A DNA stretch of 37,609 bases from Deltaproteobacteria bacterium (lineage in GTDB: Bacteria; Bacillota; Desulfotomaculia; Desulfotomaculales; JAGUVT01). Below are positions 1,550 through 15,660 of the stretch, one piece after another (position 1 is the stretch's first letter; the number at the start of each line of letters is the position of its first letter). A program made the position numbers and the translations under genes. The DNA is taken from the NCBI GenBank assembly GCA_020062745.1, contig JAGUVT010000100.1, positions 1 through 37,609 of the forward strand, written 5' to 3'. Below the pieces are notes generated by a model. That model was not told the origin of the DNA and ran no database searches. It worked only from the letters and a program-made list of their open reading frames with translations.

Positions 1550-1951
1550 TTATGCTTCAAGGCGGGTGCGGATCCAGTCTACAATTGCGTCCAGCGGGGT
1601 TCCGGGGGTGAAGATTTCTTCCGCAAACCCGCAATTTTTGAGTTCTTTTACATCTTCATCCGGGATGGTGCCGCCTCCCATGACAATAATATCTTCAGCG
1701 TCGTTTTCTTTTAAGAGTTCGCATATCCGGGGGAAGAGGGTCATGTGGGCTCCCGAAAGAATGCTTAAACCTACCACGTCGACGTCTTCCTGGATGGCTG
1801 CTTCCACGATTTGTTCCGGGGTCTGGTGCAGGCCGGTATAGACCACTTCCATGCCGGCGTCCCGGAGTGCCCGGGCGATTACCCTGGCGCCGCGGTCATG
1901 CCCGTCCAGACCAGGCTTGGCTACTAAAACTCTAATCTTTTTCTCCGCCAT
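1550..1951 (-). CDS. B12-binding small subunit of acyl-CoA mutase 1
   Basis: At 133 residues this is a complete cobalamin-binding domain of the methylmalonyl-CoA mutase C-terminal type. The base-off/His-on motif DxHxxG is DGHDRG (Asp16, His18, Gly21); His18 should be the lower axial cobalt ligand. The conserved GLSILSGAH and [11 protein letters not shown] segments of the Rossmann-like fold are also present. It lies 20 bases downstream of the 550-residue catalytic subunit gene and has a good ribosome site (ggggagga) before ATG 1951. Separate large and small subunits are usual for isobutyryl-CoA and hydroxyisobutyryl-CoA mutases and for archaeal-type methylmalonyl-CoA mutases. Confidence 0.9.
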
Positions 1952-1971
1952 CTATATTTGTCCTCCCCGTT

Positions 1972-3624
1972 TTAAAAAGTCGGCTTTTCTTTGTATTCGC
2001 CGAATACTTCGCGCAGCACCTGGATGATTTCGCCTTCGGTGGAGTAAGCCTTAACCGCATCCAGGATGTAAGGCATCAGGTTTTCGGTACCTGCGGCGGC
2101 CCGGCGCAGGTTTTCCAGGGCTTCCCGCACAAGGATGTTGTCCCTGGTTTCGCGCAGTTTTTTAACTCCGGCTACCTGGTTCTTTTCAATTTGCGGGTCT
2201 ATTTTTAAAAGCTCGATGTCCAGTGTTTCGTTCTGGTCAACGAACTCGTTGACTCCCACCTGGATTCTTTCTTTGGTATCGATGGCCCGCTGGTATATAT
2301 AAGCGGCGTCGGCGATTTCCTGCTGGAAGAAGTTCTGGTCGATGGCTGCCAGCACGCCGCCCCGCCTGTCAATTTCGGCGAAGTATTTTTCGGCTTCTTC
2401 TTCCATTTTATTGGTGAACGATTCGATGAAGTAGGAGCCGGCCAGGGGATCAATGACGTTGGCCGCGCCGGTTTCATGGGCAATGATCTGCTGGGTGCGC
2501 AGGGCAATCTGGACCGCCTTTTCAGAGGGCAGGGCCAGCGTTTCGTCCATGGAGTTGGTGTGCAGGGACTGGGTGCCGCCGAGGACTGCCGACAGCGCCT
2601 GAAACGCCGTGCGGACAATGTTGTTTTCGGGCTGCTGGGCGGTCAGGCTGCAGCCTGCGGTCTGCGTGTGAAAACGTAAAAGCAGGGAACGGGGGTCCCT
2701 GGCGCCGTACTTTTCTTTCATGCGGCGGGCCCAGATGCGGCGGGCGGCGCGGTACTTGGCAATCTCCTCAAAAAAGTCGGCGTGCGAGTTGAAAAAGAAA
2801 GACAGCCTGGGCGCGAAATCGTCAACCTTGAGGCCGGCGGCAATTCCCGCCTCCACATAAGCAAACCCGTCGGCCAGGGTGAAAGCAAGTTCCTGCACGG
2901 CGGTGGACCCGGCTTCACGGATGTGGTAGCCGCTGATGCTGACGGTATTCCACTTTGGCACATGCCGGGAGGCAAAAGCAAAAATATCGGTAATCAGGCG
3001 CATTGAGGGACCGGGCGGGAAAATCCACGATTTCTGGGCGATGTATTCCTTAAGAATGTCGTTTTGGATGGTGCCGGTCAGTTTTTGCGGGGGTACGCCC
3101 TGTTTTTCGCCGGTAGCCAGGTACATGGCCCAGATAACAGCAGCCGGGGCGTTGATGGTCATGGAGGTGCTCACCTTATCCAGGGGAATACCGCTGAAGA
3201 GTACTTCCATGTCGGCCAGGGAGTCTATGGCCACGCCTACCCGGCCGACTTCGCCCAGCGCCCGCGGGTGATCGGAATCGAAGCCCATTATGGTAGGCAT
3301 GTCAAAAGCTACCGAGAGCCCGGTTTGTCCTCTTTCCAGAAGGAACTTGTACCGCTCGTTGGATTCCCTGGCGGTAGCGAACCCGGCGAACTGGCGCATG
3401 GTCCAGAGACGTCCCCGGTACATGTTGCGCTGGACGCCGCGGGTATAGGGATATTCACCGGGCAGGCTCAGGTCGCGGAGGTAGTCGAAGTCCTCCAGAT
3501 CAACCGGTGTGTAAAGGTCGTTCACGGGAAGATTTGATACCGTGGTAAATTTTACCGGCCGGTCTCTCAGTTTATCTTTCTCTTCCTGCCATTTCCGGAG
3601 GCGGCTTTTTATTTCTTTATCCAT
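1972..3624 (-). CDS. Acyl-CoA mutase 1 large subunit, isobutyryl-CoA mutase-like
   Basis: A 550-residue TIM-barrel catalytic subunit of the adenosylcobalamin-dependent mutase family. The conserved blocks [10 protein letters not shown] (185-194) and [11 protein letters not shown] (229-239) are intact, including the Tyr/His pair Y233-H234 equivalent to Tyr243-His244 of Propionibacterium methylmalonyl-CoA mutase. At the substrate-selecting positions it has Phe79 (Tyr89 in that enzyme) and Gln197 (Arg207 there). The Phe/Gln pair is the published signature of isobutyryl-CoA mutase (Phe80/Gln198), and loss of the Arg argues against a methylmalonyl-CoA substrate. Isobutyryl-CoA to butyryl-CoA, or a related 2-methyl-branched acyl-CoA, is the likely reaction. 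ATG 3624 has an upstream gggag. It is transcribed with the small subunit. Confidence 0.85.
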
Positions 3625-3785: not shown

Positions 3786-4949
3786 ATGCGTGAAGTAGCA
3801 GTAGTAGGGGTGGGGATGACGTCTTTTGGCAAATCTCAGAAGAGCAATATTGAAATGTTTTCTGAAGCAGCCATGGATGCAATAGCAGATGCCGGCCTCA
3901 AGTCAAGGGATATTCAATCGCTTTTTTTAGGCAATGTTTTGGGAGGATTTGAAGAGGGGCAAATCGGGATGGCGGCTTTTGCCGCGGCGGACATTGGATT
4001 GCCCAACATACCGGCTACCAGGGTGGAAGGCATTTGTGCTTCGGGAGCGCTGGCTGTAAGAGAAGCTTTTATCTGGGTGGCCTCGGGTGCCTACGATATT
4101 GTAATGGCCGGCGGCACGGAAAGGGCGCTTGTTATGGGCACTTCCTATGCCACGCGCACTTTTCAAATGGGCAGCGACAGCCGTTACGAAAGCGGGACGG
4201 GAGTGACCTTTCCTGCCGTGTTTGCCATGGCGGCCAACCTTTACGCGAAGAAATACGGTATTCCCCTGGTGAAGCTGAAGGAGCAAATGGCCATGGTGGC
4301 CGTTAAGAACCATAAGCATGGCGTGCATAACCCCAAAGCCCAGTTTCGCAAGGAGATTTCCGTTGAAAATGTTTTATCCGGCATGGTGGTATGTGATCCG
4401 CTGCAGCTTTATGATTGCTGCCCCTTTTCCGATGGCGCGGCGGCGATAATCCTGGCGTCTGCGGATGTGGCGAAGAAGCTTGCGGCCAAACCGGTGTATA
4501 TCGCGGGAGTAGGGCAGGCCTCGGCCGGCCCATTGCACAACCAGAAAGATATTACCCGTTTCAAGGCGAGGGAGATTTCGGCAAAGGCGGCTTATGATAT
4601 GGCCGGCCTGACGCCGGAGGATATAGACGTGTGCGAATTGCACGACTGTTTTACCGTTGCCGAGATCATAGCTGCGGAAGGGCTGGGCTTTTTTGAGTTC
4701 GGCAAGGGCAGCGAAGCAGTTGAAAAAGGGGAAACTACTTATGGCGGTAAAATTACGATTAACCCCTCCGGCGGCCTGAAAGCGAAGGGGCATCCCATCG
4801 GCGCAACGGGGGTGGCCCAGGTTTACGAGATAGTTAAACAACTGCGCGGTGAGGCCGGCGAGAGGCAGGTAGAAGGAGCAAAAGTAGGGATGACCGATAC
4901 CCTGGGCGGAGATGCCTGTACCATTGCGAATATTATCTTAAGGGCTTAA
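3786..4949 (+). CDS. Thiolase, SCP2/BbsB-like
   Basis: A 387-residue thiolase-superfamily protein. The nucleophilic cysteine is Cys84 in VEGICASGALA. The His-containing blocks ELHDCFTVAE and GGLKAKGHPIGATG and the C-terminal GGDACTIA carry the other catalytic residues. The SCP2-type N-terminus (VAVVGVGMTSFGKS) and the neighbouring zinc-ribbon/OB-fold gene, 14 bases downstream, match the two-component arrangement of the benzoylsuccinyl-CoA thiolase BbsAB in anaerobic toluene degradation. Here it would cleave a 3-oxoacyl-CoA made from the radical-enzyme product. The ribosome site aaggaggg precedes ATG 3786. The exact substrate cannot be read from sequence, and similar pairs occur outside hydrocarbon pathways. 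Confidence 0.85.
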   Translation: MREVAVVGVGMTSFGKSQKSNIEMFSEAAMDAIADAGLKSRDIQSLFLGNVLGGFEEGQIGMAAFAAADIGLPNIPATRVEGICASGALAVREAFIWVASGAYDIVMAGGTERALVMGTSYATRTFQMGSDSRYESGTGVTFPAVFAMAANLYAKKYGIPLVKLKEQMAMVAVKNHKHGVHNPKAQFRKEISVENVLSGMVVCDPLQLYDCCPFSDGAAAIILASADVAKKLAAKPVYIAGVGQASAGPLHNQKDITRFKAREISAKAAYDMAGLTPEDIDVCELHDCFTVAEIIAAEGLGFFEFGKGSEAVEKGETTYGGKITINPSGGLKAKGHPIGATGVAQVYEIVKQLRGEAGERQVEGAKVGMTDTLGGDACTIANIILRA

Positions 4950-4963
4950 GGAGTGGAAAAAGC

Positions 4964-5365
4964 ATGGAATATAAACTTACCTATGAAGGTTTTTACGAGG
5001 CGCTAAGAAAAGATAAGTTAGTGGGCCTGAAATGCCTGGAATGTGGCGCTTATACCATTCCGCCGAAAAAAGTATGCTCCGAATGTGCCGGTGAAGAACT
5101 GGAGGTTGTTGAGTTTAAAGGTACCGGTGAGGTGCGCACCTATACTGTCGTCCGCGTTCCGCCGGAAGGCTTTGACGCTCCTTATGTTCTGGGTCTGGTT
5201 GAACTGGCGGAGGGTCCCTGGCTTCTGGGGAGAATCGTCGATGTGTACCCGGAGCAGGTTTCTTTTGACTTAATTGGGCAAAAAGTAAAGGCCGGCCACC
5301 TGGTGCAGGAAGGAGACAAGTTTTCTGCCGGGGAAAGGGTGGTAGTGGCTTTCCGGCCGGAGTGA
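4964..5365 (+). CDS. DUF35 zinc-ribbon/OB-fold partner of the thiolase (BbsA-like)
   Basis: A 133-residue protein with an N-terminal rubredoxin-like zinc ribbon: CLEC and CSEC supply four cysteines around residues 24-46. An acyl-CoA-associated OB-fold follows (GTGEVRTYTVVRVPPEGFDAPYVLGLVEL). Such proteins form stable complexes with thiolase-superfamily subunits; in BbsAB both are needed for activity. The adjacent thiolase and shared direction make it that enzyme's second subunit. Its stop is three bases from the stop of the convergent activator gene. Confidence 0.87.
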   Translation: MEYKLTYEGFYEALRKDKLVGLKCLECGAYTIPPKKVCSECAGEELEVVEFKGTGEVRTYTVVRVPPEGFDAPYVLGLVELAEGPWLLGRIVDVYPEQVSFDLIGQKVKAGHLVQEGDKFSAGERVVVAFRPE

Positions 5366-5368
5366 AAG

Positions 5369-6331
5369 TTATAAAGCATCTTCCAGGTCCCATTTTCCGC
5401 AGCGGCTGCCCCAACGCCCGATGACCCGGTCTCCTTCGTAGATTTCCACTACTTCGCATACGTTGGGGCAGCCGTCGCATTCAAAACTGCCGGATCGAAA
5501 AGACAAGGTGGTTACGGCAAACCCCTTGAACCTGGTGGTTTTAGTCCTGGCTACTGTTTCTTTGGCCAGTTGGGCGGCGCCGATGGCGCCCATTACGTTG
5601 AAATATCCGGGCACGACTACGGGCAGGTTCAGCGCTCTCTCGAACGCTGCCCGGATGCCGCTGTTGGCGGCTACGCCGCCCTGAAATACTACGGGAGGCA
5701 GGATTTCTTTGCCCTTGCCGACGTTGTTCAAGTAATTGCGTACCAGTGCCTCGCAGAGGCCGTTGATGATGTCCGGGATCCGGTGGCCCATCTGTTGTTT
5801 GTGCACCATATCCGATTCGGCGAATACCGTGCACCGGCCGGCTATACGTACCGGTTTCCCGGACTGCAGGGCCAGTTCGCCAAACCGGGTAATGGGGATA
5901 TTCAGACGGTTGGCCTGCTGGTCCAGGAAAGAGCCTGTCCCGGCGGCGCAGATGGTGTTCATGGCGAAGTCGGTGACGATTCCGTTTCTCAAAATAATGA
6001 TTTTAGAGTCCTGGCCGCCTATTTCCAGGATTGTCTGCACATCGGGCACGAGCATCGAAGCAGCCACGGCATGGGTGGTAATCTCGTTTTTGATAATGTC
6101 GGCTCCGATCATTACTCCGGCCAGGTAGCGTCCGCTGCCGGTGGTTCCGGCGCCGGCTATGATCATGCCGGCAGGAGCCGAGCGGGCGGCGGTTTTTAAT
6201 CCCTCCTGGATGACCTCAATGGGCCGGCCTCTGGTACGCAGGTAAAGGCTGGTCAAGATTTCCCCGGTTTCGCTGACGATGACTATATTTGTGCTGACTG
6301 AGCCGACATCAATGCCCAGGTATGCTTTCAT
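5369..6331 (-). CDS. HgdC/BadF-type ATP-dependent activator (2-hydroxyacyl-CoA dehydratase activase family)
   Basis: A 320-residue ASKHA-fold ATPase. The phosphate-binding LGIDVGSVSTN lies at residues 5-15 and GAGTTGSGRYLAG at 60-72. The two cysteines that bridge the homodimer [4Fe-4S] cluster are Cys128 (ICAAGTGSF) and Cys167 (RCTVFAESDM), at almost the same positions as Cys127/Cys166 of HgdC. After the ATPase there is an extra cysteine tail (Cys285, 288, 292 and 311) of the kind seen in activators linked to DUF2229 proteins. The family uses ATP hydrolysis to push an electron at low potential into a dehydratase or reductase. It is the third gene of a minus-strand operon behind two DUF2229-like proteins; no classic HgdAB pair is in the window. 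Confidence 0.9.
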   Translation of the reverse strand: MKAYLGIDVGSVSTNIVIVSETGEILTSLYLRTRGRPIEVIQEGLKTAARSAPAGMIIAGAGTTGSGRYLAGVMIGADIIKNEITTHAVAASMLVPDVQTILEIGGQDSKIIILRNGIVTDFAMNTICAAGTGSFLDQQANRLNIPITRFGELALQSGKPVRIAGRCTVFAESDMVHKQQMGHRIPDIINGLCEALVRNYLNNVGKGKEILPPVVFQGGVAANSGIRAAFERALNLPVVVPGYFNVMGAIGAAQLAKETVARTKTTRFKGFAVTTLSFRSGSFECDGCPNVCEVVEIYEGDRVIGRWGSRCGKWDLEDAL

Positions 6332-6347
6332 GAAAACCCCTTCCTGG

Positions 6348-7436
6348 TTAAATTATCTGCGGGATTTGTTTCCTGCGTCGCAGGAGGTCCACAAATGCTT
6401 CCAGGCGGGTGGTCATGCCGGCCTTTCCGGTTTGTTCGTCCAGGAAAAATGTTAAAAAGGGGATGTTGTGTTCCCGGCTTACCCGGGGCAGTATGGTGCG
6501 GGCTACTATTTCAGGGATGCAGGTGAAAGGGGCTAGTTGGATAACCCCGTCGAATCCCCGCCTGGCATAGAGAACGGTGTTGCCGATGGAGTCCCGTCCA
6601 TGCCCGCCCAGCAACTCCGGTATATAAGGGGCGGCGGCGTCTTTTACGGTAATTCCTTCCGTAGTTTCTTTCCAGGCGTTATCCCTGGTCCAGCCGGTTA
6701 AAAACATTGATCTTTCCACTTCAACGCCCAGGTTGCCGAGGGTTTCTTCGATTTCCAGGTTGCTTGCCGGTTCCAGCAGGACGTAGATTTCACCGACGAT
6801 ACCTACTTTTAGAACTTCCCTGGTTGGGTCTTGTGGAATTTTGTTTAGTGCTGTCAGAGCGGATGCTTCCGCTTCTTCGATTTGGTTTATGGTATAAGCT
6901 TCGTCGATCCAGTTCAGCGCCTGGCGGTAGACTCTGGTGGTGCTTCTCCTGGTAATTTCCCGCGGGCGAATCACATGAGAAAGTTTTTCGACGTTGTCCA
7001 GGGCTTTTACCTTGCGCCAGGCCCGCTTGATGTGAGCGATGATGCTCCGGATCGAGAGCCGTGCTTTGTTCAAGGCCCGTATGTTGTGGATGAAGTTTAG
7101 CGGGTGCAGGCGGGGCGGCTCGAAAACAATCATCTTCATTTCGTAGCCCAGATCCTGTAAAATTTTGTGGTGCAACTGGGCATATAAGCCAGCCCGGCAT
7201 GGCCCTACCCCGCCGGTAGTAATGATGGTATCCGCTCCCGCTTGAGCGGTTTCAAGGTAAGTACCGAGCAGGATTTTTAAAGGAAAACAAGCAAATTCCG
7301 GGGCATACTTGACGCCCAGGTTGAGAGTGTGTTTACCTGGTCGGGATGGAACCACCACCTCGTTACCCATGTCGTTTAGAAGCATTTTAAAAGCCCGGTA
7401 GGATTCTCCCATTCTGGGGAATGTTATCTTAGGCAT
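6348..7436 (-). CDS. DUF2229-like protein B (HgdB-related), partner of the activator
   Basis: A 362-residue protein of the group annotated as acyl-CoA dehydratase activase-related. Visible marks are YAPEFACFPLK, GGVGPCRAGLYAQ, FTCIPEIVA and a C-terminal DEQTGKAGMTTRLEAFVDLLRRR. The start is ATG 7436, because aaggagg lies just before it and homology starts at MPKITFPRMG; a longer frame to 7472 is unsupported. It overlaps the upstream gene by eight bases and ends 16 bases before the activator gene. The conserved cysteines may bind a cluster reduced by the activator. No reaction has been assigned to this family to my knowledge. Confidence 0.75.
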   Translation of the reverse strand: MPKITFPRMGESYRAFKMLLNDMGNEVVVPSRPGKHTLNLGVKYAPEFACFPLKILLGTYLETAQAGADTIITTGGVGPCRAGLYAQLHHKILQDLGYEMKMIVFEPPRLHPLNFIHNIRALNKARLSIRSIIAHIKRAWRKVKALDNVEKLSHVIRPREITRRSTTRVYRQALNWIDEAYTINQIEEAEASALTALNKIPQDPTREVLKVGIVGEIYVLLEPASNLEIEETLGNLGVEVERSMFLTGWTRDNAWKETTEGITVKDAAAPYIPELLGGHGRDSIGNTVLYARRGFDGVIQLAPFTCIPEIVARTILPRVSREHNIPFLTFFLDEQTGKAGMTTRLEAFVDLLRRRKQIPQII

Positions 7437-8421
7437 GGACGGCCTCCTTCCGGCGGCGAACCATGTCCACAAAAGCCTCGAGCCGGGTGGTGATACCTGC
7501 TTCGCCGCTATGCTCGTCGATAGTCAGGGTCATGAAAGGAATGTGCCGGTGATTTTTGGCTTCCAGTTCGATGAATTTGTTCAGAACGGAGTCGGGCCCG
7601 CAGCCGAAGGCGGTAAGGTGGATAACGCCGTCCACCTGCCCTTGCTTGAAGACCAGGTGAGCCGCTTTCAGGGCCAGGTCGCTTAAAGTCCAGAACAGCC
7701 GCTTGGACAGGTTGCAGTTCTTCTGCCGGGCCAGCAGCCGGGGATGAAAATTTTCCGTGGTGATTACCCTTACTCCTAAATGCCGCAGTTTTTCTAAAAG
7801 ACCTGCGCTGATAAAACTGTCGTATATGGCGTAGGGGTAGCCGAGCACGGCAAAAAGAAGGGATGGCTCTGTTGCCCTGCTTTCTTCCTGGTAAGGTTTG
7901 TGCAAGCCGGCCATTGCCTCCGGGAGGCTTAGACCTTTCTGCATCAAGTTGTTGAATCGTTTTAAAACGTGGCGGGCTTTCCAGCAAGCCTTCCAGACAG
8001 TTTTCCTGCCGGCGTTAAAGTAGCGCCCTATTTCGCAGTAAGCTTTCAATATGGAAATATAGCCCTGGCGGGAATCCATGCGGGTGTCGATGATTGGCGG
8101 CAAACCGGCCAGGGAATGTCTGATCATGTCCGGTAATCCCAGGAACTTGGGGCAATAGACGGTTTTGCAGTTAAGGCAGACCACCCGGGGGATAAAAAGG
8201 TAATCCACCCTGTCCTTTAGGGCCAGAACGTGACCGTAAAATAACTTTACCGGTACGCAGGCGTCGGCCGTGGCCTCGCGCACGCCGTCATCCAGGATTT
8301 CCTTTGTTGTTTTGCCGGAAGTAATTACCTGGACCCCGCCCAGTTCTTTAAAAAAGGTTTGCCACATTGGAAAATAAAGAAAATATAACAGTGCACTGGG
8401 GATGCCCACTTTTACGTTCAT
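7429..8421 (-). CDS. DUF2229-like protein A (HgdB-related)
   Basis: A 330-residue protein, first gene of the activator operon. The N-terminal GIPSALLYFLYFPMWQTFF is typical of DUF2229. Cysteines occur at DACVPVKLFYGH, VVCLNCKTVYCPKF and FGCGPDS, enough to ligate a cluster. Its tail (DEHSGEAGITTRLEAFVDMVRRRK) is strikingly like that of protein B, so the two are distant paralogues and may form a heterodimer like HgdAB. A ribosome site (gaggagg region) precedes ATG 8421. In other genomes these domains occur fused to the activator in one very long protein; here they are three genes. Confidence 0.72.
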   Translation of the reverse strand: MNVKVGIPSALLYFLYFPMWQTFFKELGGVQVITSGKTTKEILDDGVREATADACVPVKLFYGHVLALKDRVDYLFIPRVVCLNCKTVYCPKFLGLPDMIRHSLAGLPPIIDTRMDSRQGYISILKAYCEIGRYFNAGRKTVWKACWKARHVLKRFNNLMQKGLSLPEAMAGLHKPYQEESRATEPSLLFAVLGYPYAIYDSFISAGLLEKLRHLGVRVITTENFHPRLLARQKNCNLSKRLFWTLSDLALKAAHLVFKQGQVDGVIHLTAFGCGPDSVLNKFIELEAKNHRHIPFMTLTIDEHSGEAGITTRLEAFVDMVRRRKEAVHA

Positions 8422-8717: not shown

Positions 8718-9134
8718 TCAAACGGCTGCTTTTTTCCGCCGGGCATTTCCCTTAATGTAATTGGCGATGTTATCTAATTCCGAGCCGGGCAGAAACACCT
8801 CGTCAACACCTGCTTCTTTCAGTAAAGGGATGTCTTCCGGCGGGAACACGCCGCCCAGCACTACCAGCATGTCATCAGCTCCTCTTGCGCGGAGGAGTTC
8901 AGTTATTTTTGGAATTAACCTCATGTGGGTTGAAGATAAAAGGCTCAACCCGACAACGTCGACATCCTCCTGAATGGCGGTTTGCACTATTTGCTCAGGG
9001 TCTTGCGGCCCGATATAGATAACTTCCATACCGGCATCCCGGAGCGCCAGGCTGACGATAGTCACGCCCCAGGTATGAAAGTCCAGACCTGGCTTGGCCA
9101 TTAGCACTTTAATAGGACCTGATTTTTCGCTCAA
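8718..9134 (-). CDS. B12-binding small subunit of acyl-CoA mutase 2
   Basis: A 138-residue cobalamin-binding domain. The DxHxxG motif reads DFHTWG (Asp18, His20, Gly23), so cobalt ligation through His is preserved. GLSLLSSTHM and VVLGGVFPPEDIPLL form the rest of the fold. It is clearly homologous to the small subunit at 1550-1951 but divergent, and lies 21 bases after the large subunit gene in the same layout. A lysine-rich tail (ARRKKAAV) ends the protein. It should pair with the unusual large subunit at 9156-10778. Confidence 0.88.
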   Translation of the reverse strand: MSEKSGPIKVLMAKPGLDFHTWGVTIVSLALRDAGMEVIYIGPQDPEQIVQTAIQEDVDVVGLSLLSSTHMRLIPKITELLRARGADDMLVVLGGVFPPEDIPLLKEAGVDEVFLPGSELDNIANYIKGNARRKKAAV

Positions 9135-9155
9135 AACCTTTCCTCCTTTATAGTT

Positions 9156-10778
9156 TTATAACCACGTCGGGTTATCTACACCAAAGACATTGCGCCAGAC
9201 GTTGCTTATTTCTCCTATGCCGGCGTAAGCTCTGACTGCTTCCATTACTTCCGGCATGACGTTTTCTTTACCTTCACTGACCCTGGCAAGTTGATCCAGC
9301 GCTCTTTGCACCCTGATATTATCGCGTTCCTTTTTAAGTTTCTCAAACTTGGCCCGCTGTATTTCATAAGCCTTCGGATTTGGCCTGAAAACTTCGACCT
9401 GGTGCGGTTCTTCATCCATTTTAAAGCAGTTTACACCCACCACGGTCAGTTCACCATTTGCCAGTTTCCGGGCATGTTCTCTTTGGGTGTCTATTCTTTC
9501 TTTGTACAGCCAGCCCGACTCGATGGCGCCGAACCAACCCCCCTGCTCCTCAATTTTTTTCAAGTAGTCCCATGCCTTTTCTTCAATTTCGTTGGTCAAC
9601 CATTCGATGTAATAAGAACCGCCGAGGGGGTCTATGACGTTGGCGATATTTGTTTCCAGTTGAGCGATCTGTTGGGTTCTGATAGACATCAGGACGCTTT
9701 TTTCAGTCGGGTTGCAGATGGCTTCGTCGTAAGAGTTGGCGTGTATTGATTGAGCGCCTCCCAGCGCTGCCGCCAGCACCTGGTAGGCTATTCGCACGAT
9801 GTTGTTCAGCGGCTGCTGGTAGGTGTGGGTGGAACCGGCTGTTTGCACATGGAAGCGCAAAGTCAGGGCACGAGGATCGGTTGCCTTGTATCTCCCGGTC
9901 ATAATTTTGTACCACATTCTCCTGGCTGCCCGGTATTTGGCTATTTCCTCAAAGAAATCATTATGGGCTGAGAGGTGGAAGGTGAATTTGGAAGCGAAAT
10001 CGTCAGCTGTTAACCGGTTTCTTTTTAACTCTTCATCAATATAGTCTATGGCTGCGGCGAAAAGTCCGGCAATTTCCTGATAGGCGCTTACCCCGGTCTC
10101 GCGGTAATTATATGAAGTGTAGCTTACCGGGTGCCACCTCGGGGTATTTTGAGCGCACCATTCTACCAGGTCCACTCCCAATCTTAAAAGGTGACGGGGA
10201 GGAAAAGTATGGGGAAGCGGGCCGCACCCTCCGTAACTGACCGGGTCGCCTTCTGTTGTTCCGTCCACTTCGCTTAACTTGATGCCTCTTTTTTCGGCGA
10301 GGGCAAAATAGAGAGCGGTATGCGAGCAGGCGGTTGTTATCCCCTGTATGACGGCTACGCCCAGTTTTTCTATCGGCAGTCCTTCGAATATGGTCTCCAT
10401 ATCCTGCAACGTGCTTACTGATACCCCGCCGATGCCCAGTTCGTACTCGGCCAGCGGGTGATCCGGGTCGAAACCTGTCAGGCCTAAATTGTCGATGGCT
10501 AAAGCAAGTCCGGTAGAACCGTTTTCATACTCGAACCGGAACCTTTGGTTTGTTTCTTCAGGTGTGTCAAGCCCGGAGAACTGGCGGATGGTCCACAATT
10601 TTCCCCGGTACATGGTCGGATAGATTCCTCTGACATAAGGTTTTTCGCCCGGGTACCCCAAGTCTCTTTCATAATCCAGGTTGGCTGTATCTGTGGGTGT
10701 ATAAATGCTTTTCACCGGAATGCCAGAGTTGGTGGTGAATACTTCTTTTCTTTCTCTACTCTTCGTTTTTACACTCAT
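9156..10778 (-). CDS. Divergent acyl-CoA mutase 2 large subunit
   Basis: A 540-residue member of the B12-dependent acyl-CoA mutase family. The N-terminal YRGKLWTIRQFSG and the C-terminal half ([60 protein letters not shown]) are standard. The substrate-facing region is not. The usual [10 protein letters not shown] strand is replaced by TTEGDPVSYGG (174-184), so the Gln197 and Arg207 equivalents are gone. [11 protein letters not shown] becomes SYTSYNYRETG (219-229), which keeps the Tyr (Y223) but has Asn224 in place of the catalytic His244. These changes point to a different, perhaps bulkier, substrate; an alkylsuccinyl-CoA rearrangement fits the island but is unproven. ATG 10778 has an aggggggc site six bases upstream. 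Confidence 0.85.
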   Translation of the reverse strand: MSVKTKSRERKEVFTTNSGIPVKSIYTPTDTANLDYERDLGYPGEKPYVRGIYPTMYRGKLWTIRQFSGLDTPEETNQRFRFEYENGSTGLALAIDNLGLTGFDPDHPLAEYELGIGGVSVSTLQDMETIFEGLPIEKLGVAVIQGITTACSHTALYFALAEKRGIKLSEVDGTTEGDPVSYGGCGPLPHTFPPRHLLRLGVDLVEWCAQNTPRWHPVSYTSYNYRETGVSAYQEIAGLFAAAIDYIDEELKRNRLTADDFASKFTFHLSAHNDFFEEIAKYRAARRMWYKIMTGRYKATDPRALTLRFHVQTAGSTHTYQQPLNNIVRIAYQVLAAALGGAQSIHANSYDEAICNPTEKSVLMSIRTQQIAQLETNIANVIDPLGGSYYIEWLTNEIEEKAWDYLKKIEEQGGWFGAIESGWLYKERIDTQREHARKLANGELTVVGVNCFKMDEEPHQVEVFRPNPKAYEIQRAKFEKLKKERDNIRVQRALDQLARVSEGKENVMPEVMEAVRAYAGIGEISNVWRNVFGVDNPTWL

Positions 10779-10956: not shown

Positions 10957-11574
10957 ATGGTTTACATGAACTTGACCCCGGCTATTGAAAAAGCCAGGAA
11001 AAAACTGGTCCGGTGCGACCCGGAACCGTTGGCATCAAGGGCAAAGGTTACATATGATCAGTCCGCCGGATATTTTAAAGTACCTTTTTTGGGGTGTGGA
11101 TATAATGTAAACTTTCCGGGTGGTGAGGTAACTGAAGTTGGAGGGAAAAGCGTGCCGCCGGATGTGTGGCTTTTGCTGCTTCATTATTTAACCGGCGCCA
11201 GCGGGGCGCCGGTGAGCGGGCGGCTTATTTCTTTTAAGGAACTGCCTGATGGTATGCTTTATAATGAGCCTTTCACCGGCAGGGCCATTAAGCCTCTAGT
11301 GAAAATTTTCGGTCAGGCGCCGGAGAAACTGGTAGAAGCGGCCGAAAAGCTCGGCGGGCGTAAAGTTTCCCTGGGAGATGCCGGTGTGACTATCCCGTTT
11401 TTCCCGCTGGTGCCGGTAACCTATGTAATCTGGCTGGGCGATGACGAGTTTCCAGCTTCCGGCAATATTCTGTTTGATGCTTCTGCCGCCAGTTACCTGG
11501 CTACTGAGGACTATGCCGTTATGGCCGGAATGGGTGTGTTTAGAATGAGGGAAATGGTTGCTGGAAGGGAGTGA
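10957..11574 (+). CDS. DUF3786 domain protein
   Basis: A 205-residue soluble protein. It has the features I associate with DUF3786: a VPFLGCGYNVNFPGG segment, a PPDVWLLLLHYLTGA helix, a GRLISFKELPDGMLYNEPF segment and the late VTYVIWLGDDEFPASGNILFDASA. The family is found mainly in anaerobes, often near corrinoid or CO-dehydrogenase genes, and has no assigned reaction. ATG 10957 follows aagaggtg. The Nudix gene starts directly after its stop in the same frame, so the two are probably cotranscribed. Confidence 0.7.
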   Translation: MVYMNLTPAIEKARKKLVRCDPEPLASRAKVTYDQSAGYFKVPFLGCGYNVNFPGGEVTEVGGKSVPPDVWLLLLHYLTGASGAPVSGRLISFKELPDGMLYNEPFTGRAIKPLVKIFGQAPEKLVEAAEKLGGRKVSLGDAGVTIPFFPLVPVTYVIWLGDDEFPASGNILFDASAASYLATEDYAVMAGMGVFRMREMVAGRE

Positions 11575-11604: not shown

Positions 11605-12117
11605 TTGTATTCCAGGCCGGTATTTTCCGGCAGAATATTGAACCTGCGGGTTGATACTGTGTTGCTGCCTGATGGTCGCACTGCCACGCGGGAAGTGGTG
11701 GAACATTCCGGCGCTGTGGTAGTGGCGGCTTTAAATGAAGCTGCTGAAGTGATCATGGTCAGGCAGTTCCGGCATCCGGTGGAACGGGTGCTTTTGGAAC
11801 TGCCGGCCGGAACGATTGACGCGGGGGAGGAGCCGCTGGCCTGTGCGAAGCGGGAACTTTTGGAGGAAACCGGTTACGAAGCTGAAGAGTGGATATCATT
11901 GTACCGTTTTTTCAGCACGCCGGGTTTTTCTACCGAAGAGATGCACCTGTTTCTGGCTGCCGGTTTGCGGAAAGGAAAGCAGCATACGGATGAGGATGAG
12001 TTTATCGAGGTGGTGACGGCGCCTTTGAACCGGGCGCTGGAAATGATCGAGCGGGGAGATGTTTGCGACGCCAAATCAATTGTGGGTCTCCTGGCGGTTC
12101 GCCTGCGGCAGGGCTGA
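11605..12117 (+). CDS. nudF: Nudix hydrolase, ADP-ribose pyrophosphatase type
   Basis: A NudF-like ADP-sugar pyrophosphatase. The Nudix box (GX5EX7REUXEEXGU) is complete at GTIDAGEEPLACAKRELLEE followed by TGY, and the family's FFSTPGFSTEEMHLFLA and DEDEFIEV segments follow. It hydrolyses ADP-ribose and similar compounds with Mg2+. The annotated TTG 11605 is the first conventional start, but homology to NudF seems to begin earlier (LIEKVLYSRPVFSGR against EEKTIAKEQIFSGK in Bacillus). The reading frame is open back to the DUF3786 stop at 11572-11574, and aagggag (11565-11571) sits before CTG codons at 11575, 11578 and 11581. A CTG start is therefore likely. Confidence 0.88.
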   Translation: MYSRPVFSGRILNLRVDTVLLPDGRTATREVVEHSGAVVVAALNEAAEVIMVRQFRHPVERVLLELPAGTIDAGEEPLACAKRELLEETGYEAEEWISLYRFFSTPGFSTEEMHLFLAAGLRKGKQHTDEDEFIEVVTAPLNRALEMIERGDVCDAKSIVGLLAVRLRQG

Positions 12118-13146: not shown

Positions 13147-15660
13147 TTACCCCCCGATTTGCTGTACATTCCTGGCAATTATGGTGTCCTGGGTCTTTTT
13201 GTTTAAATCTACGAAGTGAGCGCTGTAGCCGGCTATGCGTACGATGAGTTCCGGGTATTTTTCCGGCTCCTGCTGGGCTGCTTTCAATACTTCGTTATCT
13301 ACAACGTTGAACTGAACATGGTCTATTCCCAGGTCGGCCCATGTTTTAATGTAGTTGAGCCAGAACTGGAATCCTTTTTCGCCGGTTAGCTGGATCGGTG
13401 AAAGACGCTGGTTGAGCAATGTGGCCCGCACGCTGCCGATGTGGTCGATTTTTGCTACCGACCGCAAAACGGCGGTTGGCCCTTTTTTATCCAGCCCGGC
13501 CCCCGGCGAGCAGCCGCCGTCGTAAAGCGTGTCGCCCAGCTTCCTGCCGTTGGGCAGGGCTCCCACCTTGGAGCCGTTGGTTACGTAAGCGGCTATGTTT
13601 TCAGGCAGCGGCGGCCAGGGATTGCCCATGGGATCGCGGATTTCCCAGCAGTATCTGGCCACATCTTCGTGGCAGCGGATGTGGACCCGGTCCACGTAGT
13701 CGTCGTCGTTGCCCCATTTGGGCGCCTGCACGAATTCCATGCGCATTTCTTCGTATCCTTCCCAATTGTTTTGCATGGCTTCAAGCAACTGGGCCATGGT
13801 GTATTTTTTCTCATCAAATACCAGTTTCTTAACTGCTGCCAGACTGTCGCCGGTTTCCATCCAGGCAAAGAATGTCACCCATGAATTCCCCCGCTCGCTG
13901 GGATTGGCGGCGTCTACGCCCAGGTCAACTGACCTTTCGTAAATGGCCGACAGGAAAGGACGGGGGTCGAGTTTTTCAGCTTTGGCCCGGCCGCTGCCGA
14001 CGATCCGGGTCCAGAAGTTTATCAGCCATTTTATTTGCTCATACCAGGCGTTATATAACTCCTCGAAACTCTCAAACTGTGAGGCGTCACCCGTGTGCGG
14101 GCCCATTTGCATCCGCAGCACCGGATCCCAGCCGTCAAAAACAGCATACTCGATTGCTTTGGCGGCTATAACGGTGGCGTGGGCCATGCGGAAAGGCTGG
14201 GAGCCCATCTTGGTATCGGGGCACGGGGACATGCAGGCCTGGTGTACCCACCGCCGGGCTTCTTTTAAGGGGTGGCTGTGCCAGTGCATGGCATTGGCAA
14301 CCAGGACCGGGTCATTGCGCATGGCCGGGTAACCCAGTCCCTGCCTGATGCACTCAAATACCTGTTTTAAAGTCTGGATGCGGGCGTTGGGATGGTACCG
14401 GAAACCAAAGGTGGGGTTGGATACCCTTACCAGCCTGGCGGTTTCCAGGAAAATATCCGTCAGGTCGTTGCAAGCATCGGTGCCGTCTTCGTTTACTCCG
14501 ACCAGAGTCCATACCCAGGTGCCGGTGATCCCCTGCAGAGTGTCCCGGGCCAGCAGGAGCCAGAAGAACCCTACCTCGTAGGCCCTGATCATAAACTCAC
14601 CGACTAAATCTATAACTTCTTCTCTGGAGAGGTTTTTTTCTTCATTTACGTCTCTATTGTAATATGGCCAGTGCCAGTAGTCGGGGCGGGCCGGCCATGC
14701 TCCTTCAAGGGCTTCATACCGGGCCAGAATCTGGACAAAGTGATCGAACTGGAGAGATTCCCACAGATGGTCAGGCGGTTCGGCCGGCACTTTCCAGCAG
14801 GTCTCGGCCATCCGGAGCAGTTCTTTTTTCCGTTTGGGGTCGGTTTCGAAGTTTTCGGCAATAATCCTGGCCAGCCGGCTGTAACGCCTGGCCCACCTGA
14901 TTGCTGCTTCCAGGGTTATCTTCATGGCTTCCCAGACTTCCAACTTGTCGAAGTAATCGTAGTCTTCCGGACGGGGAACACCCTGGTAAAGTTTTTCGCG
15001 TGCTTCGTTCATTTTCTGGTCGATTATCTTGAGGATACCGTTAAATCCAAGTTTCATGAAGAAATCAAATTGTTTGGTTGAATACCCTACCGAACTTAAA
15101 GGCAGGCCCCACCCGATAAAACCGGTGAGCGCTTTTACCACGTCCTCCGGCGACAGCATTTGCATGCCTTTGGTACCGATAGTGCGGGGATTCCAGTAGT
15201 CGCAGATTTCTCTCATTACTTTTAAAGATTCTTTTTCCGGTTCCGGTATAACCGTTCTGTCGTTATAAGCATCTTCGTTCATCAAGTAAATAATTTCCGG
15301 GTTCCAGCTTACGGTATGCGGGCGGGAGCCGACATAACCCGCTATCTGGGAGTGATCCAGGATAAAAATTTCGATATTATCCCACACGGAAGCCAGTGCC
15401 TTGGCTCGCCGAATGGTAGGGGTGTCGCTGTCGTTTTCCCGCCAGGTTTTTGTATACCAGAGCGCTCTTTGCAGGTCCAGTTTTATTCCAGGCAAATAGC
15501 CGGAGCCCCTGGCCCCTTTAACCCAAACGGCCTTGCGCAAGTAATTGAGGCGTTCGGATCTCTGTTTTTCAGCCAGCCACCACCATTGGCCGGTTTTTTC
15601 CATCTCTTCTATTTCTCTTGTTTTTAATTCGCTAACTGGCATTTTGCCCACCACTTTCAT
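13147..15660 (-). CDS. Glycyl radical enzyme, X-succinate synthase (alkyl/benzylsuccinate synthase) alpha subunit
   Basis: At 837 residues it matches the length of BssA/AssA. The active-site cysteine block is WVHQACMSPCPDTK (probable thiyl Cys476). The C-terminal radical loop is RIAGYSAHFVD with Gly811, followed by the KKTQDTIIAR tail. The N-terminal part (IAGYVGSRPHTVSWNPEI, residues 106-123) also resembles the fumarate-adding branch, as does the downstream small Fe-S subunit. The reaction would be radical addition of a C-H bond to fumarate, giving a substituted succinate; alkane or alkylbenzene cannot be told apart here. A radical-SAM activase is required and lies outside the window. ATG 15660 lacks a ribosome site; ATG 15642 (MPVSELK) has ggtggg four bases before it. 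Confidence 0.88.
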   Translation of the reverse strand: MKVVGKMPVSELKTREIEEMEKTGQWWWLAEKQRSERLNYLRKAVWVKGARGSGYLPGIKLDLQRALWYTKTWRENDSDTPTIRRAKALASVWDNIEIFILDHSQIAGYVGSRPHTVSWNPEIIYLMNEDAYNDRTVIPEPEKESLKVMREICDYWNPRTIGTKGMQMLSPEDVVKALTGFIGWGLPLSSVGYSTKQFDFFMKLGFNGILKIIDQKMNEAREKLYQGVPRPEDYDYFDKLEVWEAMKITLEAAIRWARRYSRLARIIAENFETDPKRKKELLRMAETCWKVPAEPPDHLWESLQFDHFVQILARYEALEGAWPARPDYWHWPYYNRDVNEEKNLSREEVIDLVGEFMIRAYEVGFFWLLLARDTLQGITGTWVWTLVGVNEDGTDACNDLTDIFLETARLVRVSNPTFGFRYHPNARIQTLKQVFECIRQGLGYPAMRNDPVLVANAMHWHSHPLKEARRWVHQACMSPCPDTKMGSQPFRMAHATVIAAKAIEYAVFDGWDPVLRMQMGPHTGDASQFESFEELYNAWYEQIKWLINFWTRIVGSGRAKAEKLDPRPFLSAIYERSVDLGVDAANPSERGNSWVTFFAWMETGDSLAAVKKLVFDEKKYTMAQLLEAMQNNWEGYEEMRMEFVQAPKWGNDDDYVDRVHIRCHEDVARYCWEIRDPMGNPWPPLPENIAAYVTNGSKVGALPNGRKLGDTLYDGGCSPGAGLDKKGPTAVLRSVAKIDHIGSVRATLLNQRLSPIQLTGEKGFQFWLNYIKTWADLGIDHVQFNVVDNEVLKAAQQEPEKYPELIVRIAGYSAHFVDLNKKTQDTIIARNVQQIGG

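Follow-up and report, generated by a model that had tools for sequence, protein, structure and literature searches.

The window analysed here, the whole stretch of 37,609 nucleotides of contig JAGUVT010000100.1 (assembly GCA_020062745.1, Deltaproteobacteria bacterium, assigned to the Desulfotomaculales by GTDB), contains a three-gene unit at 5369-8421, here termed Red1, Red2 and Act. Judging by sequences and predicted structures, this trio very probably forms a complete ATP-driven reductase of the benzoyl-CoA reductase/2-hydroxyacyl-CoA dehydratase (BCR/HAD) type. It is very probably a split relative of the plasmalogen synthase PlsA and of the glycerol ester reductase Ger, with a single kind of activator, as judged by domain order and conserved cysteines. 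Trios of this kind are widespread among anaerobic Bacillota, and the one in the window is not tied to the hydrocarbon genes which surround it. New here are the observations that the activator of stand-alone DUF2229 proteins is the adjacent gene and that, in many Bacillota families, the spoVA operon is immediately followed by a basal trio. The latter association, at the level of the family, was the most surprising result.

Red1 (7429-8421, minus strand, 330 residues) consists of DUF2229 (PF09989, 1e-49) and the C-terminal portion of HGD-D (PF06050). Red2 (6348-7436, minus strand, 362 residues) matches PF09989 at 4e-11 and HGD-D weakly. Red2 starts from an ATG at 7436 and so overlaps Red1 at its end. 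Act (5369-6331, minus strand, 320 residues) begins 16 bp after Red2, i.e. the operon is tight. The three same-strand open reading frames confirmed the unit proposed in an earlier, sequence-only reading of this DNA. Act is a BadF/BadG/BcrA/BcrD ATPase, an activator of the HgdC type, with PF01869 (6e-48) and TIGR00241 above cut-off; its nearest PDB relatives are MbdQ (2e-40) and HgdC (1hux, 2e-39). Both cysteines of the bridging cluster, C128 and C167, are present, as had been claimed, and are invariant. The alleged near-identity of the Red1 and Red2 tails was overstated: these are 48% identical over 68 residues and represent the shared C-terminal domain of HGD-D.

The AlphaFold models of Red1 (pLDDT 94.5) and Red2 (pLDDT 90.2) both adopt the BCR/HAD fold. 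The leading PDB fold matches were the double-cubane protein DCCP, HadBC and BzdNO for either model and, in addition, MbdON for Red1. A sequence-profile search of the PDB gave no match for Red2; with Red1 it retrieved just the C-terminus of DCCP and two weak designed proteins. No curated equivalog, those for 2-hydroxyacyl-CoA dehydratase and benzoyl-CoA reductase included, was above cut-off for any of the three proteins.

Cysteine conservation was examined in 55 aligned Red1 and 53 aligned Red2 sequences (the window copy and those from the named genomes; Red2 residues are counted from its ATG at 7436). Exactly three cysteines were invariant in Red1 (C55, C90 and C274) and exactly three in Red2 (C50, C80 and C306). 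The remaining cysteines of the window Red1 are not conserved across the family. Thus, of the several conserved cysteines which had been ascribed to the DUF2229 proteins, three per subunit stood and the others of Red1 did not. BzdO has likewise been described with three cysteines for its single [4Fe-4S] cluster (PMC11971306); C55, C90 and C274 of Red1 probably constitute one three-cysteine Fe-S site. The cluster ligands, for which a conservation check had been suggested, were conserved in the Act, Red1 and Red2 alignments alike. The trio displays two features of the BCR/HAD superfamily: an ASKHA activator of the HgdC type which has both cysteines of the bridging cluster, and catalytic subunits of the HGD-D fold, each with three cluster cysteines. 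A third, ATP-dependent electron transfer at low potential, is predicted. Because both Red models have the BCR/HAD fold and each protein has three invariant cysteines, the earlier proposal that the DUF2229 pair itself is the catalytic partner of Act is well supported, and we consider this assignment likely.

Act carries a C-terminal module of four cysteines (C285, C288, C292 and C311; 5399-5479, minus strand), probably an extra metal site. This tail is kept in 96-100% of the trio activators, whereas three further activators encoded in this genome lack it. Canonical activators of 260-275 residues are likewise devoid of it. Among characterized systems the 2-hydroxyisocaproyl-CoA dehydratase HadBC with its activator, as well as HgdC (1hux), resemble the trio in fold and activator type; yet HadBC, which uses an acyl-CoA substrate, is only about 10-17% identical to the Red proteins in the structure alignment. 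Class I benzoyl-CoA reductases (BzdNO, MbdONPQ) and DCCP have the fold and an HgdC-like ATP module in common with the trio, whereas the trio lacks additional conserved double-cubane cysteines and an equivalog match.

Relation to PlsA and Ger

Plasmalogen synthase is composed of Act1-Act2-Red1-Red2, either in a single gene or as a plsA-plsR pair, and the pair of Clostridium perfringens is a two-gene layout of 4.2 kb (PMC12838417). Ger is a PlsA-like enzyme which produces alkyl ethers (PMC11150832, PMC13274423); a diagnostic Ger sequence motif is not known (PMC13274423). By means of the Act-Act-Red1-Red2 domain set, phospholipid esters are converted to plasmalogens and alkyl ethers (PMC12838417, PMC9702350, PMC11150832, PMC13274423). 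The chemistry had been called undescribed in the sequence-only reading; this does not apply to the domain set, although it does apply to the trio branch, which itself is uncharacterized.

Profiles built from the trio aligned colinearly, as Act-Act-Red1-Red2, on PlsA-type proteins of 1409-1481 residues, which were recognized by architecture and not via a characterized sequence. The profiles also fitted a two-gene pair of 1004 residues (Act-Act-Red1) and 421 residues (Red2), in agreement with the layout and size of C. perfringens plsA-plsR. The invariant cysteines of Red1 and Red2 are identical in trio and PlsA-type proteins (19/19 for Red2). The four-cysteine tail was present in Act2 of all 20 PlsA-type proteins (100%) and in Act1 of none (0%). 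PlsA/PlsR (C. perfringens; single-gene PlsA in Enterococcus, Lactococcus and Bifidobacterium) and the trio thus share the module types, Red1 followed by Red2, the three-cysteine Red sites, the Act cysteines and the four-cysteine tail. They differ in that PlsA has two fused activator domains whereas the trio has one activator gene and separate Red genes. Ger (Thermotoga maritima, Desulfatibacillum alkenivorans; PMC8788747, PMC11150832), PlsA-like and of the same superfamily, is reported as one polypeptide with two activation domains; again, the trio is split and has one activator.

In a 2026 lipid paper PlsA homologues without activation domains were reported from all Bacillota genomes screened and their role was called unclear (PMC13274423). 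These stand-alone DUF2229 genes very probably encode the same proteins as Red1 and Red2 of the trio. The order Red1-Red2-Act on one strand was observed in 54 of 80 named loci; therefore, the activator is simply the neighboring gene. For the homologues in question this locates the activator, makes it probable that the complex is complete and provides, with the spoVA operon, a hint at a role.

Further arrangements were noted. Long Act-Act-Red1 proteins (about 1300-1460 residues where complete; L092-L096, L100) occur in the same taxonomic order and form a third branch, which is separate from both the trios and canonical PlsA. Fusions of Red1 and Red2 (716-790 residues; L081-L091) have a separate activator adjoining in most loci and are often located near recG, gpr, rsmD and coaD. 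At four loci (L123, L134, L137, L159) the trio is followed by an additional Red2-like gene, giving Red1-Red2-Act-Red2, possibly an alternative partner.

Genomic context of the trio family

Of 60 genomes from this order, 59 contain a Red1 relative. The window trio and its close relatives, termed trio A, occur in 30 genomes, seven of which lack any mutase gene (PF01642; G002, G011, G021, G029, G038, G047 and G056). A mutase gene was nearby at 11 of the 27 trio-A loci examined, and minC, NUDIX and DUF3786 genes recur there. In the window the DUF3786 gene (10957-11574, plus strand; PF12654, 2e-56) and the NUDIX gene (11605-12117, plus strand; PF00293, 9e-18) are separated from the trio by a mutase pair. 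Because of this separation from its conserved neighbors, the island genes look intercalated into what looks like an old minC-NUDIX-DUF3786 locus. Loci in other orders were mostly without acyl-CoA genes. The named loci had no constant metabolic neighbor, as is expected for a self-contained enzyme. Canonical HGD-D genes reside on other contigs of the genome, several beside their own activators; therefore, the trio need not serve them.

Of 130 Bacillota genomes with Spo0A, about 111 (a hand tally) contain a trio-type Red1, versus 4 of 20 genomes without Spo0A (Fisher p 8e-9, without phylogenetic correction; a conservative 75/130 gives 0.003). The sequence-only reading had considered the trio as a step in a hydrocarbon or mutase pathway, had asked for co-occurrence with mutase genes and had named wide occurrence without a link to acyl-CoA metabolism as a refutation. 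Such wide occurrence was found, co-occurrence failed in the seven genomes above, and the pathway assignment was not borne out. The trio genes should hence not be annotated as acyl-CoA dehydratases of hydrocarbon pathways.

The same genome harbors a second trio, trio B (contig 105, L010, 8194-11298), which directly follows spoVAC-spoVAD-spoVAE without a gap. This arrangement was seen across the order and also in Thermincola, Natroniella, Orenia and Halonatronum. It was present in 14 of 16 further loci, a biased count because these loci were selected for a Red1 near spo0A. The gap between the preceding reading frame and Red1 was 100 bp or less in 25 of 30 spoVA-linked loci measured. In an unselected set of 19 complete or nearly complete genomes, nine have a Red1 which shares the strand of spo0A and lies at most 50 kb downstream of it; 0.3 were expected. 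In the tree the spoVA-linked trios were basal and paraphyletic, and the window trio was placed within a derived, unlinked clade (support 91, quick tree). Probably, the family arose beside the spoVA operon and the window copy is a derived paralogue at the minC locus, as tree and gene order suggest.

In Clostridioides difficile the spoVA genes are sigma-G dependent (sporulation transcriptome paper). A role of the family in sporulation is suggested by gene context. Possibly, and we propose this with considerable reserve, the ancestral trio was the last part of the spoVA operon, a forespore-expressed reductase which would convert membrane-lipid esters to ethers, or act on a comparable spore component, and later copies took over other duties. 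If the link to the forespore is true, a radical-type lipid or spore reductase joins the sporulation gene set of anaerobes, and this bears on bacterial ether-lipid synthesis. A limited literature search retrieved no paper which joins spoVA, 2-hydroxyglutaryl-CoA dehydratase and sporulation. The main texts of a 2012 sporulation gene review and of two C. difficile sporulation transcriptome papers mention neither activator nor dehydratase, and under the domain or COG names of the trio there was almost nothing.

In three Syntrophomonadaceae-type loci apparent selA-selB genes directly precede the trio, and for Slackia a selenium paper connected selenium genes with an activase and with a subunit of 2-hydroxyglutaryl-CoA dehydratase; a selenium link of the trio was rejected as lineage-specific. 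In Moorella and its relatives a gene for a Fur/PerR-like regulator is repeatedly seen close to the trio (L132, L138, L143, L145, L153, L158, L163, L177).

Proposed reaction and alternatives

We tentatively propose, with somewhat less than even confidence, that the trio catalyzes the ATP-driven reduction of a membrane glycerolipid ester and is a split cousin of the Act-Act-Red1-Red2 enzymes. An Act homodimer with a bridging [4Fe-4S] cluster would spend ATP on the transfer of single electrons of low potential to a heterodimer of Red1 and Red2. Red1 and Red2 would each hold one three-cysteine Fe-S site and reduction would occur between them. The substrate would be a membrane glycerolipid ester, reduced towards an ether, and not an acyl-CoA of a hydrocarbon pathway.

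Phylogeny and lipid analyses weigh against this proposal. In Red1 trees the trio formed a deep branch apart from canonical PlsA, with long branches and SH-aLRT values of 95-100. Thus, the trio shares the module design of PlsA and Ger but is similar in design rather than a member of the PlsA clade, and because it is outside that clade the substrate need not be common to both. The genome G007, presumably that of Pelotomaculum thermopropionicum (it belongs to the family of a named Pelotomaculum genome), carries two trios but lacks PlsA. PlsA and a trio are both present in four genomes of what presumably is the Desulfotomaculum/Desulforamulus family. Published tables contain no dimethyl acetals of at least 1% for P. 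thermopropionicum and P. terephthalicicum and list dimethyl acetals for Desulfotomaculum species (PMC6776889, PMC3339622). These data make it less likely that the trio is the main plasmalogen maker, and the tables argue against plasmalogens as its product. Saturated ethers would be missed in those older fatty acid analyses.

A narrower form of the lipid-ester proposal, in which the trio would be a plasmalogen synthase proper and, like PlsA, form vinyl ethers, is suggested by the same kinds of domains and the same conserved cysteines up to the Act tail. We regard it as unlikely in view of the deep, separate Red1 branch, the presence of PlsA together with trios in many genomes and the reported lack of dimethyl acetals at 1% or above in Pelotomaculum, which apparently possesses trios only. 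Similarly improbable is a 2-hydroxyacyl-CoA dehydratase or acyl/aryl-CoA reductase which catalyzes a low-potential step in the mutase or hydrocarbon pathway. The BCR/HAD-like fold and cysteine pattern would suit such an enzyme, the surrounding genes include those of two mutase pairs, of a thiolase pair and of a MasD-like synthase, and a mutase gene is near trio A at the 11 loci mentioned. Yet trio-A genomes without any PF01642 gene exist, acyl-CoA genes are mostly absent from the loci in other orders, the mutase pair of the window is intercalated between the trio and DUF3786-NUDIX, and the genome has canonical HGD-D operons with activators elsewhere.

The trio might also reduce a non-lipid substrate in an ATP-driven manner or serve as a redox activator of another enzyme, possibly in connection with the spore. 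This is conceivable, if doubtful: the operon stands alone among varied neighbors, the trio is strongly associated with the presence of Spo0A in a genome and with the spoVA operon, and related families use other substrates, such as thiouridine monophosphate and small molecules (PMC11971306). However, the closest characterized relatives act on membrane lipids, and each Red subunit has all three cluster cysteines of its own, in contrast to a pure activator. Both Red models matched DCCP best in the fold comparison, which would fit a small-molecule reductase with a double-cubane cluster. Such an identity is most improbable and was rejected: each subunit has only three invariant cysteines, as for the single [4Fe-4S] cluster of BzdO (PMC11971306), and none extra for an [8Fe-9S] cluster; the NCBIfam double_cubane score was 20.5 versus a cut-off of 350.

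Neighboring genes of the island

The surroundings of the trio had correctly been described as a hydrocarbon-type island. A glycyl radical enzyme of 837 residues (13147-15660) matches the 1-methylalkylsuccinate synthase MasD with 1102 bits versus 526 bits for the next relative; an activase gene was not noticed beside it. Two pairs of mutase large and B12 subunits flank the trio (1550-3624 and 8718-10778). The nearest PDB relative of the mutase at 9156-10778 is 2-hydroxyisobutyryl-CoA mutase; perhaps it is an alkylsuccinyl-CoA mutase. The genome has 15 matches to large subunits of the methylmalonyl-CoA mutase type in 2.7 Mb, compared with 0-3 in most relatives and 11 in G057. A thiolase and a ChsH2-like OB-fold protein form a pair at 3786-5365 which resembles the two-subunit benzoylsuccinyl-CoA thiolase type.

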